Shown here: one piece after another, positions 33,986-56,789 of the stretch
How the letters are laid out: each line of letters begins with the position of its first letter
Numbering within the stretch: position 1 is the first letter of the stretch
Assembly (NCBI RefSeq): GCF_011174675.1
Contig: NZ_JAANIG010000019.1
Coordinates: 1 to 64,000 of the forward strand
DNA length: 64,000 bases
DNA from: Perlabentimonas gracilis
GTDB lineage: Bacteria; Bacteroidota; Bacteroidia; Bacteroidales; Tenuifilaceae
Direction of reading: 5' to 3'
Translations under genes and position numbers: made by a program
Notes under the pieces: generated by a model
What the model was told of the DNA's origin: nothing
Database searches by the model: none
The model's input: only the letters and a program-made list of their open reading frames with translations

Positions 33986-34780
33986 ATGAAAAGCTTCTCG
34001 GACAAGTTTTCTCGTTTCGAAGTGTGGCTCGATGTGATTGCCCATCGATTTTTTAATTTTTGGGAAAGGCACAAAGTCGGGATTCTTGGTACCGTAGCTT
34101 TAAACCTATTGCTAACCATACTTTTTTTTGTATTCGAACTCAAAAGCCGCCCTTACCTGCACGATACGATGGTATTGGTTGATTTTGAAAGGGAGTATGA
34201 AATTGCTCCCGAACATGAGCCCGACCCAAACCAACCCCTCCTACCCGACGATGCCCTTGATCCAATGCAAGAATATGAGGCCATTAGAAACATTGCTGTA
34301 GATGCCACCAAGGAAGACCTAAACCCAGGATTAGTCGACGAAAAAAACATAAATGCCGATGAGCTGTACCAAGAGGCGCAGCGCATAAGGGAACAGATGG
34401 AGCAAAACCGACAACTCTGGGAGGAGTCGCAGTCCGAAGAGGCTATCAATATCCCAAATGTAGAGGATAAAAACATAACTACCGATGAGGGGCAATTCAA
34501 AGGCCCATCGGTTATAAGCTACTTTTTGGAGAATAGAAGAGCTTTGCGTTTACCTGTACCTTCGTATAAGTGTGAGAATGGGGGTAAAGTTGTTGTTGAT
34601 ATTGAGGTGCAGCGCGACGGGACTGTATCGAGAGCCAGTATCGACCAAGCAAATTCAGTTCTCGACGATTGTATGAATCAAGCTGCCATTGAGGCTGCGC
34701 GCCGAAGCGTTTTCACCGTGTCGAGTGGGGCACCACATCGTCAGGGCGGGAGCATCACCTATCTATTCGTTGCGCAGTAG
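33986..34780 (+). CDS. TonB-like energy transducer domain protein
   Basis: A 264-residue protein with one transmembrane helix (about residues 37-56, VGILGTVALNLLLTILFFVF). An acidic, Pro/Glu-rich periplasmic linker follows, with coiled-coil-like LYQEAQRIREQMEQNRQLW. The C-terminal TonB-like domain is at about 185-264 (GGKVVVDIEVQRDGTVSRA, CMNQAAIEAARRSVF). It probably belongs to the TonB/AgmX family that couples inner-membrane energy to outer-membrane receptors. No ExbBD genes are adjacent. It converges with the alanine dehydrogenase gene 5 bases away. Confidence 0.75.
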   Translation: MKSFSDKFSRFEVWLDVIAHRFFNFWERHKVGILGTVALNLLLTILFFVFELKSRPYLHDTMVLVDFEREYEIAPEHEPDPNQPLLPDDALDPMQEYEAIRNIAVDATKEDLNPGLVDEKNINADELYQEAQRIREQMEQNRQLWEESQSEEAINIPNVEDKNITTDEGQFKGPSVISYFLENRRALRLPVPSYKCENGGKVVVDIEVQRDGTVSRASIDQANSVLDDCMNQAAIEAARRSVFTVSSGAPHRQGGSITYLFVAQ

Positions 34781-34785
34781 TTCAA

Positions 34786-36003
34786 CTAAAATGCTGCCAT
34801 TAGCAAGTTAATATCCCTAGCAGGGATATTGTAAAGCCCCCCAAGGTAACTGTTAGTAAGTATCCCATTGTATATGTATACTCCGTGCCGTAGGCCAGAG
34901 TCTTCCTTCAGGTGCTGCTTAATACCTCCCGTATCGGCAATATCAGAAAGTAGGGGGGTAAATACGTTGCTCAAGGCAATGGAGGAGGTACGTGCTACCC
35001 GGGCAGTAATATTTGGTACGCAGTAGTGTATAACGCCGTGCTTTACAAATGCAGGATCAGTATGTCGCCTAACTTCAGAAGTCTCAAAACACCCACCCTT
35101 ATCAATGCTTAAATCGACGATTACAGAACCTTTCTTCATAAGTTTCACCTGATCCTCAGTAATCATTAGCCTACCCTTGGTTTCCTCGGGAATAATGGCC
35201 CCAATAACAACATCAGCTGTTTTAAGCACACGCTCAAGCACCTGCCTATGAAATATGGATGTGTACAGTCGTTGTCCCAATATATCCTGCAGCTCCATTA
35301 GTCGCTTCACCGAATCATCAAAAATCTTCACATTTGCACCAAGCCCCAGTGCTGCCCTGGCGGCAAACTCACCAGCTGTTCCGGCTCCCAGAATGACCAC
35401 CTCTGTGGGCGTAATTCCCGACACACCACCCAGCATTACGCCTTTACCCTCATTTACATTGCTTAGGTACTCGGCTGCCACGAGTATTGATGTGCTGCCT
35501 GCAATTGAACTCATAGCCCTAACCACAGGGTAGGCTCCATCATCGTCGCGTATACTCTCAAAGGCGATAGCTGTGGTTTTCTTTTTCATCAAACCCTTAA
35601 TCTGTTGCCCAGCTTCTGGGGTAAGGTGTAGCGACGACATCACCACCTGATTCTCGGTAAGCATATCGATCTCAGCGTGAAGAAGAGGTGATATCTTAAG
35701 TATGATCTGGGCTTTAAATACCTCCTGACTTGTTTTTACAATCTGGGCGCCTTTCTCGCTGTAGTCATGATCGGTGTAGTTGGCCAATTTGCCGGCCTCA
35801 GACTCGATTATAATCTCATGCCCCCAGTTCACAAGCAGCTCAACGGCCTCGGGGGTTAGGGGTATTCTACTTTCGGTTTCGTCACTCTCCTTGGGAATTC
35901 CAATTACAAGCTTCTTGTTCTGTCTGCTTACCTCGAGCATCTCCTCCTGGGGTAGCAAGCCTCTAACAAATGAAAATTCTTTTGATGAGGATAAACGGGT
36001 CAT
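34786..36003 (-). CDS. ald: Alanine dehydrogenase
   Basis: A 405-residue NAD-dependent enzyme of the alanine dehydrogenase/PNT family, converting alanine to pyruvate plus ammonia. Seen: IGIPKESDETESRIPLTPEAV at the N-terminus, the Rossmann loop VILGAGTAGEFAARAALGLG, VIGAIIPEETKG, and VIVDLSIDKGGCFE. This is the Bacteroidota variant with an N-terminal extension of about 30 residues. No promoter box of perfect consensus is seen upstream. Serine dehydratase and this enzyme both feed pyruvate, but they are not in one operon. Confidence 0.9.
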   Translation of the reverse strand: MTRLSSSKEFSFVRGLLPQEEMLEVSRQNKKLVIGIPKESDETESRIPLTPEAVELLVNWGHEIIIESEAGKLANYTDHDYSEKGAQIVKTSQEVFKAQIILKISPLLHAEIDMLTENQVVMSSLHLTPEAGQQIKGLMKKKTTAIAFESIRDDDGAYPVVRAMSSIAGSTSILVAAEYLSNVNEGKGVMLGGVSGITPTEVVILGAGTAGEFAARAALGLGANVKIFDDSVKRLMELQDILGQRLYTSIFHRQVLERVLKTADVVIGAIIPEETKGRLMITEDQVKLMKKGSVIVDLSIDKGGCFETSEVRRHTDPAFVKHGVIHYCVPNITARVARTSSIALSNVFTPLLSDIADTGGIKQHLKEDSGLRHGVYIYNGILTNSYLGGLYNIPARDINLLMAAF

Positions 36004-50986: not shown

Positions 50987-51580
50987 CTAACACCCACCAC
51001 GCGGCACCGACACATCTACCACCACCTCATCGTTGGCTGGTTGCGATGATTTTGCTCCGTTGGGCATAAGCGTACCGTAGCTATGGCGCATCTTCTCGTC
51101 GGAGTAGTGAAAGAACGATGGCGTAGGGTTCTTAACCACTCGATTGTTGGCAATTTCGAAACCTCCATTGAGCACCTTAAACCCATAAAAGCCATTCATC
51201 GTTAGCAGGGCGTTAGCCCGTATGGCTTCAGCCTCACTATTTGCATACAGCACCTTCAACTTATCGCTGCGCCCCTCTATATACTCGGCATAATCGCTGT
51301 GAAAAAGTTTGCTCAAAGGTACATTTATGGCGTTGGGAAGATGACCCTGTTGGTACTGCTCATCAGTTCTAATATCGATAAAAAGGATATTGGGATCATT
51401 AGACCTAACTGCCAACGCCAGATCGTAGAGCGAGAATGATGACTCCAAGCTAACCATCATCTCCATCTGCTCCTGCACGGAGTGCTTGTAGGGCGATGTA
51501 AGTAGCTTCTTACCCACCATCGACAGAAGGAGAATACCTGCAATTATGCTTATAACAATAGTTAGTATATGCTTTTTCAT
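50987..51580 (-). CDS. Membrane-anchored rhodanese-like protein ending in RGGC, catalytic Cys missing
   Basis: A 197-residue protein with an N-terminal membrane anchor or signal (about 5-23) and a rhodanese fold at about 45-150 (NILFIDIRTDEQYQQGHLPN, then FKVLNGGF). The active-site position reads VLYANSEAEA: the catalytic Cys is Ala113. After a flexible linker the protein ends VSVPRGGC, with Cys197 the last residue. Two other proteins of the same operon end in RGGC as well. I infer a periplasmic protein that carries sulfur on its terminal cysteine. It is the last gene of the sulfur operon, 28 bases after the transporter. Confidence 0.82.
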   Translation of the reverse strand: MKKHILTIVISIIAGILLLSMVGKKLLTSPYKHSVQEQMEMMVSLESSFSLYDLALAVRSNDPNILFIDIRTDEQYQQGHLPNAINVPLSKLFHSDYAEYIEGRSDKLKVLYANSEAEAIRANALLTMNGFYGFKVLNGGFEIANNRVVKNPTPSFFHYSDEKMRHSYGTLMPNGAKSSQPANDEVVVDVSVPRGGC

Positions 51581-51608
51581 GGCTTATCGGTTTTTTATTT
51601 TGATAGTT

Positions 51609-52817
51609 CTAGCATCCTCCTCTGGCCGCAGCGGTTTCGGAGAAATCAATCTTCGGGCTGGGCTCAGCCTTTTTGGCCTCCAGAGCTCCCTCGCGGAAAG
51701 CCTTTTTGGCACGCTCGCGGAACCTGTAAGCAAATTCTGCCTCCATCTTAAGATTGTTGGGCATAGTATTGTTCTCAAGTATATCGAACAGTCCATTTAG
51801 TCCGCCCTCCATAACGTAGATATTTTTAAACCCCATACGACGTGCGGCGATCCAAGCCTTCTCTGCAAGGGCGGTACCATTGGAGTAAAGTATTACCTTT
51901 TCGCCCTTAGGCGATAGAACCTCTCGCCACCGCTTCCGGGTAATCTGCTCGATGGGGATATTTACCGATCCGGGCAGGCTAAACTCTGCGGCATCGGATC
52001 GTGAGCGAACATCAACGAGTGTGGCTGGATGGTAATCGTTTAGCAACTTAAAGGCAACCTCATCGGGGTGTACGTAGTGGCTTCCGGCGAGTATCTCATC
52101 CTGTAGCTGTTCCTTGTCGATCTCATTTACACCGGTAATGCTTTTGAATGGGGTAAAGATTAACACCACTCCCATAAGTAACGCGATGCTAATAGGCAAG
52201 AAGTAGCTCGTTCCCTTGGTATCGGCCAAACCGTTCTCGGGGTCAACCTTTGCCTCAATCATTGCGGTAACACCAAAAGCAATTAGCGCAATAGCTATAA
52301 GAAGAAAGGCAAACCAGCCAGCTGAAATTCCTAAAGAGTCGAAGATAAACAGACGACCAAGATTACCGCTTACGGAAAACTCCTCGATTAGAGGGAATGC
52401 CTCACCGTAGAGAGTAATACCTAGAAAAATTCCGATGAGAAACACCATAGCATCGACCTTGCCAATGGCCGCTGCGGTTACGCTTGTTCCCGGACAATAT
52501 CCTCCCAGAATAAACCCAAACCCCATAACCACACCACCCACTATGGCTGGCCAGATAAATGTTGGGTTTACGTAAACCAGCGACATATCAATCCACCCCA
52601 GGTAGTTCATGGCAAATACCCCCACCATGGCGGTAACACCTGCGGTAAAAAACACGCGTAGCACGGTAAAGTCGTATCCGTAAAAAACGCCTGCCAACCT
52701 ACGAGACGAGGAGAACCCAGCAGATTCGAGGACATATCCAAATGCTATTCCAATAAGTAGGGCAAAAACAAGATCCCATTCCATTCCAATAATTCCTTGT
52801 GGTATAAGTGGTCCCAT
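51609..52817 (-). CDS. YeeE/YedE half-transporter fused to a Cys-less rhodanese, ending in RGGC
   Basis: A 402-residue protein. Residues about 12-222 form a YeeE/YedE (TsuA-like) membrane half with the conserved Cys108 in GGYCPGTSV. TsuA-type channels move thiosulfate or related sulfur species. Residues about 255-350 are a rhodanese domain (TLVDVRSRSDAAEF...YVMEGGL) whose catalytic position reads LYSNGT, with Ser312 in place of Cys. A charged helix (about 355-385) and a flexible tail end in ETAAARGGC, with Cys402 terminal. The partner half (52888) is encoded just upstream. Confidence 0.85.
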   Translation of the reverse strand: MGPLIPQGIIGMEWDLVFALLIGIAFGYVLESAGFSSSRRLAGVFYGYDFTVLRVFFTAGVTAMVGVFAMNYLGWIDMSLVYVNPTFIWPAIVGGVVMGFGFILGGYCPGTSVTAAAIGKVDAMVFLIGIFLGITLYGEAFPLIEEFSVSGNLGRLFIFDSLGISAGWFAFLLIAIALIAFGVTAMIEAKVDPENGLADTKGTSYFLPISIALLMGVVLIFTPFKSITGVNEIDKEQLQDEILAGSHYVHPDEVAFKLLNDYHPATLVDVRSRSDAAEFSLPGSVNIPIEQITRKRWREVLSPKGEKVILYSNGTALAEKAWIAARRMGFKNIYVMEGGLNGLFDILENNTMPNNLKMEAEFAYRFRERAKKAFREGALEAKKAEPSPKIDFSETAAARGGC

Positions 52818-52887
52818 AGCAAAGGGTTGTTTTGTAGTAAGATGTTTTTAACTGTGTTTTGTATGATCGATATATAGACCTAACTTA

Positions 52888-53412
52888 TTAAATCCATAGC
52901 TTACGGAAGAAATAGGCAACGGCGTAGCCTGAGCCAAAAATTGCCATCATGGTAATTATTCCTCCCGTTGACATTACTGCCATTCCGCTTAGCGCAGCAC
53001 CACTGGTACAGCCTCGGCCAAGCTGAGCCCCAATGCCAAAAAGCATTCCGCCTAACAGGGCAAAACCAAGGCGAGTGCCAGCGTTAACACGCGGACCTCT
53101 CTCTACTTTAAACTTCATCCTACCAGAGAGAATGCCCGAAAGCAAACCACCAATAAGCACACCCAGCACTTCGATGGAAAGCCATGATTTCAGGGGATGC
53201 GTTTCACCCGACAGGTTGGGCCCCCAAAAGGTTGACTCCGCTGCATGCTCGGGGGCAACAGCACTAACAGTAACCGTGGCCAAATCTTTAAATGCTCCGC
53301 TGGCACCAAGTCCCCGACCCGCTATAAATATGGCCATTAGCAGCACTAGGCCTAGCAGAACACCTGCTAGGTATGGATTGATGTATTGGCTTTTTGACTG
53401 TTCCATGATCAT
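52888..53412 (-). CDS. YeeE/YedE second half-transporter (DUF6691-like)
   Basis: A 174-residue membrane protein with about four helices. It carries GVLIGGLLSGILSGRMKFKV and GAQLGRGCTSGAALSG with the conserved Cys135. Full-length YeeE/YedE proteins have two such halves; here they are separate genes, as in split PmpA/PmpB-type pairs. This copy has no rhodanese and no RGGC tail. ATGs at 53412 and 53406 are equally good. Confidence 0.85.
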   Translation of the reverse strand: MIMEQSKSQYINPYLAGVLLGLVLLMAIFIAGRGLGASGAFKDLATVTVSAVAPEHAAESTFWGPNLSGETHPLKSWLSIEVLGVLIGGLLSGILSGRMKFKVERGPRVNAGTRLGFALLGGMLFGIGAQLGRGCTSGAALSGMAVMSTGGIITMMAIFGSGYAVAYFFRKLWI

Positions 53413-53458
53413 CTAATTAAATTTTGGTAACCCAATATTTACTGCCTACAATATTAAC

Positions 53459-54517
53459 TTAACAACCACCCCTGGGAACTGCAACCACCTCAACCTTCTC
53501 AAGGTTTTGAGGAGCACCACTACCCGAGGAAACAGGCAATCCATATATCTCCTTCTCGGTAAATGCATTACCCGTATTCTCCTTAACCATAACGCTATGC
53601 ATAAAGCTATTGGCTCCATACACAAGGGTTAGGGCATCGTAACCAAGCAATCGTAAGTAAGCTGTTACAAAGGCACTATGCTGACCTGTAAAGCAGTACA
53701 CCACAATACTTTTATCCGTTGGTAGGGTGTTTAGCTGCTCCGATCGCTTCAGCGATTTTTTGGGTTGATACTGAATTGCTCCGGGGATATGGCCAATATT
53801 ATACAACGGTTCGGGCCAGTAGTTGGCAATGTAAAAATTTTGTCCTGCCTCAAATAGCGTGTCGGCTGTAATGGTAATTGGACTAAAGTCCTCGGCAAAA
53901 AGCATATGCGCTCTTTCTCTCAGAATGGCAAAGCCATAGCTCTCGGAGGTTACTATTTTCGGAAACTCACCTGCCGGGTTCTTTCGGTTGGCTTCGCGCT
54001 GCAGCACCTCGGAATATTTACTGGATCTACGCGCCATCCAGCGCTTTTGTGCGGTGTCGTTATGCCAGCTGCTAAAGCCCCATTTTAAGGCATACACATT
54101 GTCGTAACCCAAAAAACGGAGTATCGATGTAGCATACGATGCAGTTTGCCCAGCATTGCACACCATAGCAATTGCACTAAAGCAAGATGGATTGATTTTA
54201 TTCTCGAAAAAGTTTAGCACCTGCGTAAATGGTACATTCACGGAATTGGCTATGTGTGCCGACGCAAACTCTTCGGCGCTACGCATATCTATAACCAACA
54301 CGTTGCTGTCGAGCTTGGCATATAGTTCTCCAGCCGAAATCATTGCAGGCACCTGTGGGCTGTTTATAAAATCACCCGATCGCTCAATGTAGGTAATCAG
54401 CGAGTCGAATGCTACTTCTGGTGCTAACGCTGTATAGCTTTTCTGCTCAACACCTCCACCACAAGCCGATAGTAAACCAGCAACAACAATGAAATAAGTA
54501 ATCTTTCTAACATCCAT
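53459..54517 (-). CDS. Double-rhodanese lipoprotein ending in RGGC
   Basis: A 352-residue lipoprotein (lipobox LLSAC, Cys19) with two rhodanese domains. The first (about 60-155) has VCNAGQTAS with catalytic Cys120, the second (about 220-320) VYCFTGQHS with Cys275. Rhodaneses transfer sulfane sulfur from thiosulfate or persulfides to acceptors. A flexible stretch follows, and the protein ends VVAVPRGGC with Cys352 terminal. It is therefore the only one of the three RGGC proteins with intact catalytic cysteines and is the likely sulfurtransferase of the set. It lies 8 bases after the cytochrome b gene. Confidence 0.85.
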   Translation of the reverse strand: MDVRKITYFIVVAGLLSACGGGVEQKSYTALAPEVAFDSLITYIERSGDFINSPQVPAMISAGELYAKLDSNVLVIDMRSAEEFASAHIANSVNVPFTQVLNFFENKINPSCFSAIAMVCNAGQTASYATSILRFLGYDNVYALKWGFSSWHNDTAQKRWMARRSSKYSEVLQREANRKNPAGEFPKIVTSESYGFAILRERAHMLFAEDFSPITITADTLFEAGQNFYIANYWPEPLYNIGHIPGAIQYQPKKSLKRSEQLNTLPTDKSIVVYCFTGQHSAFVTAYLRLLGYDALTLVYGANSFMHSVMVKENTGNAFTEKEIYGLPVSSGSGAPQNLEKVEVVAVPRGGC

Positions 54518-54525
54518 AGTAAAAC

Positions 54526-55182
54526 TTATTTAGATTTCTCTGATTGCTCAACTGTATTCTCCCCTTCGTCTTCATCATGGTCCAGCTCTTCCCAACCGGT
54601 AATCATAGCCTTAATGGCTGCAGTGGGTTTGTGACCAGTAGTTGTTAGGTACACATGGGCAATTACAAATGCTATTAGCGCAAAGGCACCTATGGTGTGG
54701 ATAATTGCTACCAATTCGAGGTTTATCATGTCGATGGATTGAATCTCACCCCCTGAGGGGTACTTGTAGTAGTAGTACAAGAAACCAGTGATAATCTGTA
54801 CCGGTATGGCGAAAATCTTTAATCCAAGGTAAACCATCCTTTGCAGGGGATTAAACTTATTGTAAACCGTTTTCTTGGTTGGGTGCGGTGCTCCCTTAAA
54901 AATTCCGGTGATATAGTACTCAACCTGAGCTTTAATAAACTTGGTTGTGGGGATATATTGTCGCCACTCGCCCGTGGTGAAATGCCAAAAGATGGCAAAT
55001 ACTATGAGCCAAACCAACGCCCATAGGGCGTAGTTGTGCCAGCGCACAGCGGCATCAAAACCCATTAGATCGAACGAACCATGTATTTCGAATCCAGTTA
55101 CTGCCAAAAAAAGGATAAGGAAGGCCTGGCTCCAGTGCCAAAACCTTTCAAAAATCTTGTAAACATATGTGAGCTTAGCCAT
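54526..55182 (-). CDS. Cytochrome b (thiosulfate-reductase/b561-like membrane subunit)
   Basis: A 218-residue membrane cytochrome with about five helices. Histidine candidates for heme b: RFWHWSQAF, AAVRWHNYAL, IIHTIGAFALIAFVIAHVYL. Such b-type subunits pass quinol electrons to periplasmic reductases, or take electrons from periplasmic oxidations. Its neighbour is the octaheme cytochrome (23-base gap), so they should form the electron-transfer module of the operon. The C-terminal tail is acidic. Confidence 0.87.
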   Translation of the reverse strand: MAKLTYVYKIFERFWHWSQAFLILFLAVTGFEIHGSFDLMGFDAAVRWHNYALWALVWLIVFAIFWHFTTGEWRQYIPTTKFIKAQVEYYITGIFKGAPHPTKKTVYNKFNPLQRMVYLGLKIFAIPVQIITGFLYYYYKYPSGGEIQSIDMINLELVAIIHTIGAFALIAFVIAHVYLTTTGHKPTAAIKAMITGWEELDHDEDEGENTVEQSEKSK

Positions 55183-55205: not shown

Positions 55206-56789
55206 TTACTGATTACGTTTACGAGCCATTACAATGCGTAGTGTTCCGTGGAAAAGCACCCCGCCCAGCGTACCCAGTATTAATAGGATGCCGATTATAT
55301 CAACAGTAGCGCTCCGGTCGCGCCCAGGCATGTAGAAATCGGTTAGCCCCTCAAGGCGTGATCCCTCGCGGGTATGGCAATCGGTACAGCTTAGCGCCAT
55401 TTCCTTGGGCGATACCATATGCGAAATGGGCAGGTACATTTCGGTTTCTACAAACTCCCACTCGCCACTCCAAGGCAAACCGGCCAATTTCATCCCCTCT
55501 GTTAGCGATGCTTCCCAATCGAAATCGACCCAAAGTCCTCCCTTACCTGGCTCCTTATCCCAAAGCTTTGCCTTCAGTACTCGTTGGTAATTGGGGTCGA
55601 ATGGTTGTTTGCCTCGATGGATTTTCACTGGCCATATTTGTGCTTTGGAATCGTTGTAATCGCCAAAAAGAGTATTGATTTTAACTGGAAACTCGGTAAT
55701 TGTGTCGCTAGCTAACATATGATCGGCTTGGCCGTTAAACCAAACGTACTCTGGTGCGGCATTGCTCTCCCAGTGGCCTGTACCCTTTATGGATTGGTAC
55801 GAAATACGCCCTGTTGAATCCATCATCTCGTATGGTTTGCCATCCTGCAAATCGCAAGCGGTGGACCAGTCCCAGTACATCTTAGTTGGATTAACCTTAG
55901 CATAGGTTGGAATGTGACAGGTTTGGCACGCAACCTTTACCGTGTGCTCGTTGAGCTTGCCTACGGCATGGGGCTTTACTCCATGGCACTGCGTACAGGT
56001 GGCACGGTTATAGTCGTTCGATGCCGTACCGTAATACCGGCCTTGCATAACATGGTTTTGGGTTTTGTGGCAATCGGTACAGCTCATATCCATACCCTCA
56101 CGATTCATATGTACGTCCACATCGCGGGTGGTGTTGAGCAGAGCCTCCTCGAGATGACCATGCTTTATGTTATTACCCCCAGCGCTATAGAAGTGACAGT
56201 ATCCGCAGTTATACTTTGTGGGCATACCCACATTGGCTGTAATAAAGTTATAGTCGGGAGCAAATGGACCATCGACTGGTGGGTAACCTGCTGCTCCTCC
56301 GCTGGCTTTCTCGTAGGTACGTGTATTATCATGGCATACTAAGCAGTCCATATTGTGCTGCTGGGTAAAATCGAAGCCATTTTCGTCCCAACCATAGCCA
56401 GCATGGCACTTATTACAGGTAGACTCGCTACCGCCAATACCTGTACAGAAGTTGTTTATCAGATTCTTTTTACCCAGATAAACAACACCGCGCCCTTCGA
56501 TAAAAGCCTCTCGCTCCCACAGCCAGTGGTGATTATTTAGCAATTCCTCACCTCGCTCGGTATGGCATGAAAGGCAAGCCTGGGTAACCTCCTGCGGCGA
56601 ATTAAACTCCTTTTGCAGCTCGGCAAGCTTACCATGGTCAACAGCCTTCTTTGGCTTATTCCCAACTTCAACCTTAAGTGCTTCCAGAACCTCGGGGTTC
56701 ATCTGCTTTGGCTTGTCGAGTATGGCAACTGCAATAAATATTTGGGGTATTAGCACAATGGCCAGAAAGGGGATCAACTTGTTCTTCAT
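55206..56789 (-). CDS. Octaheme c-type cytochrome, tetrathionate reductase family
   Basis: A 527-residue exported multiheme cytochrome with an N-terminal signal/anchor and a C-terminal membrane helix (VDIIGILLILGTLGGVLF). There are eight CxxCH motifs: CLSCH, CNKCH, CLVCH, CGYCH, CTDCH, CTQCH, CQTCH and CTDCH. This is the octaheme tetrathionate reductase (OTR)-like family; OTR of Shewanella reduces tetrathionate, nitrite and hydroxylamine in vitro. It is the first gene of the six-gene operon, with a TATATTTG box upstream. The operon contents favour a sulfur substrate, but nitrogen oxides remain possible. Confidence 0.88.
   Translation of the reverse strand: MKNKLIPFLAIVLIPQIFIAVAILDKPKQMNPEVLEALKVEVGNKPKKAVDHGKLAELQKEFNSPQEVTQACLSCHTERGEELLNNHHWLWEREAFIEGRGVVYLGKKNLINNFCTGIGGSESTCNKCHAGYGWDENGFDFTQQHNMDCLVCHDNTRTYEKASGGAAGYPPVDGPFAPDYNFITANVGMPTKYNCGYCHFYSAGGNNIKHGHLEEALLNTTRDVDVHMNREGMDMSCTDCHKTQNHVMQGRYYGTASNDYNRATCTQCHGVKPHAVGKLNEHTVKVACQTCHIPTYAKVNPTKMYWDWSTACDLQDGKPYEMMDSTGRISYQSIKGTGHWESNAAPEYVWFNGQADHMLASDTITEFPVKINTLFGDYNDSKAQIWPVKIHRGKQPFDPNYQRVLKAKLWDKEPGKGGLWVDFDWEASLTEGMKLAGLPWSGEWEFVETEMYLPISHMVSPKEMALSCTDCHTREGSRLEGLTDFYMPGRDRSATVDIIGILLILGTLGGVLFHGTLRIVMARKRNQ

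Follow-up and report, generated by a model that had tools for sequence, protein, structure and literature searches.

SoxY, a component of the Sox system of thiosulfate oxidation, bears a C-terminal GGCGG arm; Sud, the sulfide dehydrogenase of Wolinella succinogenes, is a periplasmic rhodanese that reportedly supplies PsrABC with sulfur from polysulfide via the cysteine of its rhodanese loop; and DsrC/TusE is a cytoplasmic sulfur carrier whose C-terminal arm bears the reactive cysteine at its end. SoxT, a YeeE-like transporter, has been proposed to receive sulfur from the cysteine of SoxY (PMC11582611). In StTsuA, the channel cysteines C293, C91 and C22 follow one another from the outer to the inner side and pass thiosulfate on to YeeD, a TusA-like protein (PMC11073785), and the octaheme tetrathionate reductase (OTR) of Shewanella is known from the reduction of nitrite, hydroxylamine and tetrathionate (PMC4484225). 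An operon in a 64,000-nucleotide stretch of the Perlabentimonas gracilis genome (contig NZ_JAANIG010000019.1, positions 1 to 64,000, the whole of which is called the window) encodes an OTR-family cytochrome, a YeeE/TsuA transporter split into two halves (YeeE1 and YeeE2), and three proteins with rhodanese domains (rho1, rhoF, which is fused to YeeE1, and rho4) that share the C-terminal residues RGGC. As far as the sequences can indicate, the terminal Gly-Gly-Cys is probably (with a probability of roughly two in three) a mobile arm that carries sulfane sulfur as a persulfide and links the oxidoreductase, the sulfurtransferase and the YeeE pore.

By analogy, the closest counterpart of the arm would be that of SoxY, the closest system as a whole would be Sud with PsrABC, and SoxT would be the closest precedent for supplying a YeeE protein from the cysteine of a carrier. 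The arm resembles that of SoxY in being a flexible C-terminal Gly-Gly-Cys, predicted to be periplasmic, in a sulfur context with a YeeE-like transporter, but it ends in GGC or GGCx rather than GGCGG, usually with the cysteine last, and its body is a membrane-tethered rhodanese instead of a SoxY fold. Domain libraries (Pfam and NCBIfam) matched the operon proteins only to Rhodanese, Sulf_transp and related models and detected no SoxY domain, and no Sox gene was identified beside the GGC-tailed rhodanese genes; an initial annotation had called the tail convergent with or related to the SoxY arm, of which homology is not supported, leaving convergence at most, and the domain content excludes membership in the SoxY family. 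Sud is a rhodanese that serves as a sulfur carrier next to an NrfD enzyme of the Psr type; in the type II relatives of this operon, a predicted periplasmic rhodanese is likewise encoded with a Psr-type molybdenum (Mo) enzyme (the window has OTR instead), and the sequence relatives of rhoF include PDB entry 1qxn ('sulfide dehydrogenase'), which is taken here to be Sud. However, the arm-bearing rhodaneses described here lack the loop cysteine, which excludes them from membership with Sud, and they have a terminal cysteine on a disordered arm, are membrane-anchored, and are coupled to YeeE. As in the TsuA/YeeE-TsuB/YeeD system of thiosulfate uptake, first and second channel cysteines are present, one on each of the two YeeE halves; unlike that system, the transporter is split into two genes and fused or linked to a putatively periplasmic rhodanese with a cysteine arm in place of a cytoplasmic TusA-like partner, and the third channel cysteine has become serine. 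DsrC/TusE differs from the arms described here in being cytoplasmic, in its fold, and in having a penultimate cysteine. No description of GGC-tailed rhodaneses was found in the open-access literature, and other journals may hold some; such an arm on rhodaneses seems not to have been described before.

Conservation and specificity of the Gly-Gly-Cys tail

The three tailed proteins are all encoded on the minus strand. The first, rho1 (50987..51580, 197 amino acids), is an N-terminally anchored single rhodanese whose last residue is its sole cysteine; YeeE1-rhoF (51609..52817, 402 amino acids) consists of the first YeeE/TsuA half, an extra transmembrane (TM) helix and a rhodanese domain; and rho4 (53459..54517, 352 amino acids) is a lipoprotein with two rhodanese domains. 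Their RGGC tails (50990..51001, 51612..51623 and 53462..53473, respectively) place the cysteine last, as the initial annotation had reported, with a stop codon directly after it (VSVPRGGC-TAG, TAAARGGC-TAG and VAVPRGGC-TAA). The tail codons of the three genes differ (CGT GGT GGG TGT, AGA GGA GGA TGC and AGG GGT GGT TGT), so the tails are not the result of a recent DNA duplication. The three architectures that had been assigned to these proteins were corroborated by Pfam, which found one rhodanese domain in rho1, Sulf_transp plus rhodanese in YeeE1-rhoF, and two rhodanese domains in rho4; the rhodanese family PF00581 scored above its cut-off in a rhodanese superfamily test, and the fold was confirmed by Foldseek, which returned a rhodanese fold for the rho1 model.

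Conservation of the tail was assessed by a six-frame recount over 80 homologous loci plus the window, with either GGC or GGCx scored as a tail; the loci came from a scan of species genomes and represent Bacteroidales, Flavobacteriaceae, Chlorobiota and Kapabacteria, nearly all of them as metagenome-assembled genomes. Within the order Bacteroidales, 93 of 295 sampled genomes have rho4 homologs. The tail is present on 52 of 55 rho1, 57 of 59 rhoF and 56 of 90 rho4 proteins, and is absent from all 794 unrelated open reading frames (ORFs) of those loci and from the YeeE2, cytochrome b and OTR proteins. Thus, lack of conservation of the terminal cysteine in homologous operons, which the initial annotation had named as evidence against a sulfur arm, was not found for rho1 and rhoF. 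The tail is confined to operons of this type, in which sulfur genes invariably adjoin it. The relatives end mostly in GGC and otherwise in GGCx, xEGC (EGC) or DGC, preceded by residues that vary between genomes (VPRGGC, EEEGGC, GGGGGGC, KKREGC). The Gly-Cys end is invariant and the arginine is local to this lineage; RGGC is rejected as a conserved motif because the relatives keep just GGC or -GC.

In the complete operons that were read, the arms were never all absent; where one protein had lost its tail, another had retained it. Genomes with a stand-alone rho4 matched the rhoF model in 20 of 21 cases, 19 of the matches being a rhoF/rho1-type protein and that in the genome of locus L074 a double rhodanese only; where the end of these rhoF/rho1-type proteins is readable, it is GGC or GGCx in all but one, which is of the EECPDLN type. 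A phylum-wide sample of 395 genomes brought in further classes, in which the tails of YeeE1-rhodanese fusions and of split rhodaneses are GGC, GGCx or KKREGC-like; outside the phylum, a plasmid search gave just two matches to YeeE halves. Some variant ends were also observed: a lipoprotein-type rho1 variant (L109:9256-9867, L180:2225) ends in DFDEECPDLN, possibly another arm, with partners that retain GGC(x), and stand-alone double rhodaneses (L070:9971-11026, L076:9968-11020) end in PSCG, another variant with a cysteine near the end.

The 4.37-Mb genome of P. gracilis was screened by DNA patterns for GGC followed by a stop codon, and each of the 71 places that matched (65 with TAA or TGA, 6 with TAG) was inspected, as was every one of 15 matches to an [R/S]GGC pattern. 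Only four ORFs of at least 60 amino acids end in GGC in the whole genome, namely rho1, rhoF, rho4 and one HMA/MerP-like protein, so the presence of the tail on three genes of one operon is not due to chance; the remaining rhodanese genes of P. gracilis do not have it. The HMA/MerP-like protein, a periplasmic exported protein of 125 amino acids that ends in KTGGGC (L254:922-1299; contig C33, about 34421-34798), perhaps has the same kind of tail in a metal-carrying use. On contig C23, a rhodanese without a signal peptide (L140:5520-5963) ends in SGGCGGCGCGC; the genes near it resemble an arsenic resistance cluster, and a small neighbor (L140:5059-5340) ends in MQGGCCGCGG.

Loss of the rhodanese loop cysteine and predicted disorder of the tail

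The catalytic loop cysteine is absent from each of the 112 proteins of types rho1 and rhoF in the first set (the loops in the window are LYANSEAEA in rho1 and LYSNGTALA in rhoF) and from 29 of 31 rho1/rhoF-type proteins of the phylum-wide set, a point absent from the initial annotation. The tail cysteine is the sole cysteine in 22 of 53 rho1 and 45 of 59 rhoF domains. The double rhodanese rho4 retains its catalytic cysteines C120 and C275, each in 88 of 90 proteins, and has both in the window. Because the loop cysteine is absent from rho1 and rhoF and kept in rho4, the former appear to be carriers that have exchanged the loop cysteine for one at the tip of an arm, and rho4 is the likely enzyme. 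The three proteins are thus not alike in kind: two are rhodaneses without a catalytic cysteine, and rho4, often without a tail, keeps its active sites. In some rho1 proteins (L042:2536-3213, L044:684-1331), a CxxC-like sequence, DQCGACGPW, occupies the position of the loop and lies outside the canonical catalytic site.

In the AlphaFold2 model of rho1, the N-terminal helix and the rhodanese domain mostly have predicted local distance difference test (pLDDT) scores above 90, and the chain from approximately residue 161 to the end is of low confidence with no secondary structure, in agreement with the flexible stretch that had been described before the tail; the model of the YeeE1-rhoF fusion, with a mean pLDDT of 67.5, was of low confidence and was not used. 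In alignments, the disordered linker (about 20-40 residues) varies in length and sequence, the C-terminal end is constant, and neither a conserved histidine nor a second cysteine is found near the tail. Within one operon, the proteins resemble each other in the six residues that precede GGC, with 3.50 identities for rho1/rhoF, 3.26 for rho1/rho4 and 2.86 for rhoF/rho4, compared to 1.0-1.1 for shuffled pairs and 1.7-1.8 when the shuffling was confined to one operon type. For rho1/rhoF, the shuffled mean was 1.14 and the maximum 1.92; for all three pairs, the observed values were never attained in 5000 shuffles, a result that serves as a guide and not as an exact probability, the set containing related species. 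Codons are identical for 56% of the identical residues before GGC, where local codon usage predicts 49%; as codon identity is near random, the likeness of the tails is kept mostly at the peptide level, by selection on the peptide, and recent gene conversion was rejected as its source. Such likeness is as expected if all arms visit one common partner.

Operon types, compartment and the split YeeE pore

The same operon encodes a cytochrome b561-type membrane subunit (54526..55182, minus strand), assigned by domain searches, and the octaheme cytochrome (55206..56789, minus strand), which belongs with the OTR family by a TIGR04315 score of 533 bits (cut-off, 375 bits) but differs from it in being encoded alongside cytochrome b561, YeeE and GGC-tailed rhodaneses. 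The fused YeeE1-rhoF accompanies OTR and cytochrome b at 22 loci, one of which also has a Mo enzyme; a split rhoF accompanies a PhsA-like Mo enzyme, an NrfC-like iron-sulfur (FeS) protein and NrfD at 22 loci; and five further loci have both. The initial annotation had suggested a check for correlation of the tail with octaheme cytochromes; about half of the operons have a PhsA/PsrA-like Mo enzyme instead, and a strict tie to octaheme cytochromes is rejected. The smallest units, found in other classes, are OTR-cytochrome b-YeeE2-(YeeE1-rhoF-GGC) or Mo enzyme-FeS protein-NrfD-YeeE-rhoF-EGC, with no adjoining rho1 or rho4; because these units retain just those parts, the core is one periplasmic quinol-linked sulfur oxidoreductase together with a split YeeE pore and a single rhodanese that bears an arm; rho1 and rho4 are additions to it. 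Flavobacterial operons (L126:1253-18994, L090, L104 and L111) are flanked by an ExtM-like 12-heme cytochrome and a porin weakly like ExtI; ExtM and ExtI are parts of a Geobacter selenite/tellurite cluster. Locus L126, from the cultured relative Lutimonas saemankumensis, which has a type II operon, additionally has SQR (type III), DsrC-like and DsrE2-like genes.

A lipobox cysteine is present in 80 of 90 rho4 proteins. A single N-terminal TM helix is present in rho1 and in split rhoF, and lysine and arginine are more numerous before this helix than after it (31 of 32 rhoF; 28 versus 10 for rho1), and the C-terminus of split YeeE1 is strongly basic (net charge +3.1) and therefore placed in the cytoplasm; from these two features, the rhodanese domains and their arms should be on the periplasmic side. 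Both YeeE halves match PF04143 (Sulf_transp). YeeE2 (52888..53412, minus strand, 174 amino acids) has no tail. By motif alignment, YeeE2 and YeeE1 retain the first and second channel cysteines of StTsuA, the cysteine of GRGCTSG in YeeE2 being equivalent to C293, and Cys108 of YeeE1 (GGYCPGTS, 52494..52496, minus strand), which is invariant in the alignment, to C91. The position of the third channel cysteine is Ser36 of YeeE1 in the window (52710-52712), and the matching residue is serine, glycine or threonine throughout the relatives. Substitution of the terminal cysteine of the tail for the periplasmic entrance cysteine of YeeE was considered and rejected, the missing cysteine being the cytoplasmic one.

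Proposed function of the arm and alternatives

In the proposed mechanism, an ancestral rhodanese would have lost the cysteine of its domain, a cysteine terminating a disordered linker would have taken over the role, and the cysteine-less rhodanese domain would have stayed as a membrane-tethered docking body. Thiosulfate, polysulfide or tetrathionate products would be the soluble donor from which the periplasmic rho4 accepts sulfane sulfur; rho4 would then persulfidate the arms of rho1 and rhoF, which would deliver the sulfur for reduction to the quinol-linked oxidoreductase (OTR/cytochrome b in the window; PhsA/PsrA-like/NrfD elsewhere); in the reverse direction, the arms would take sulfur from the oxidoreductase, if it acts as an oxidase. 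The arms may also, or instead, bring sulfur to the opening of the YeeE1-YeeE2 pore, which rhoF adjoins or is fused to, and the pore would function either in sulfur import or in exchange at its outer face alone.

Several observations weigh against the arm as a sulfur carrier. The tail is lost or changed in rho1 of L068, L109 and L122 and lost in rhoF of L113/L114, where rho1 retains VIGGC; flavobacterial and many stand-alone rho4 proteins are without a tail; and L153/L154 have a loop cysteine and a terminal cysteine together. Charges give no clear side of the membrane for the fused YeeE1-rhoF, the side of which is taken from its split homologs. By motif alignment, the third, cytoplasmic channel cysteine (C22 of StTsuA) is serine in 49 of 54 YeeE1 proteins, and the operon has no TusA gene, so sulfur import through the pore is not assured; the YeeE subgroup without this cysteine may not pass sulfur to a TusA-type acceptor. 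A terminal thiol could alternatively serve metal binding or thiol-disulfide exchange. Only one TusA/YedF gene occurs in the genome, within a selenium cluster on contig C46 (L141:553-7617) that has SelA-, SelB-, cysteine desulfurase-, TusA/YedF- and SelD-like genes, a set from which the host probably makes selenocysteine.

It is unlikely that the arm carries reducing equivalents in the manner of DsbD or thioredoxin instead of sulfur, its cysteine making mixed disulfides with, or reducing, persulfidated rho4 or the products of OTR or the Mo enzyme. One reactive thiol on the flexible tail of an exported protein, and the CxxC-like loop of some rho1 proteins, would suit such a thiol-redox role, but an intramolecular disulfide cycle is impossible in the many carriers that have a single cysteine, no DsbD or thioredoxin gene recurs among the identified neighbors, and the carrier body is a sulfurtransferase fold adjoining a sulfur transporter. 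Less probable again is a tail that brings a thiolate to a metal center or heme iron as a ligand, or carries a soft metal ion: the one other GGC-ending protein of the genome, being a periplasmic HMA/MerP-like metal-binding protein, points in that direction, but the identified neighbors are sulfur/redox genes among which no metal transporter or chaperone recurs, and the single cysteine has neither a conserved histidine nor a second cysteine close to it.

The match of the residues before GGC within each operon would also be explained if the tail were just a shared recognition peptide by which the proteins dock to one partner, with a structural cysteine; these residues differ freely among genomes while the Gly-Cys stays, and such a role is very improbable. 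Poorest of all are the prospects of a C-terminal signal for sorting, lipidation or cross-linking (prenyl-like or CTERM-like), unconnected with catalysis. A short conserved end behind a variable linker looks like a processing signal, and the tail residues are alike within each operon, but the proteins are anchored already (by a signal anchor, by the lipobox cysteine of rho4, or as polytopic YeeE), GGC is the extreme C-terminus without the TM helix and basic end that follow the motif in a CTERM-type layout, and the motif is restricted to this operon type.

The sulfur-carrying arm can be extended to a broader proposal, which is tentative and rather doubtful as a whole: that the GGC-tailed rhodaneses are a new carrier class in which the rhodanese cysteine has moved from the loop to the arm tip, that they form a Bacteroidota-wide module for either of two unrelated respiratory enzymes (OTR or PsrABC-type) with a split YeeE, and that the true substrate of OTR in these bacteria is arm-bound sulfane sulfur. 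If true, a sulfur arm of the SoxY type would have been invented a second time, independently, and the relocation of one residue would clearly have turned an enzyme fold into a carrier; an uncharacterized module of sulfur respiration or sulfur uptake, known by its three-residue tail, would be present in many uncultured Bacteroidota from sulfidic habitats; and the OTR-family cytochromes would have a candidate substrate.

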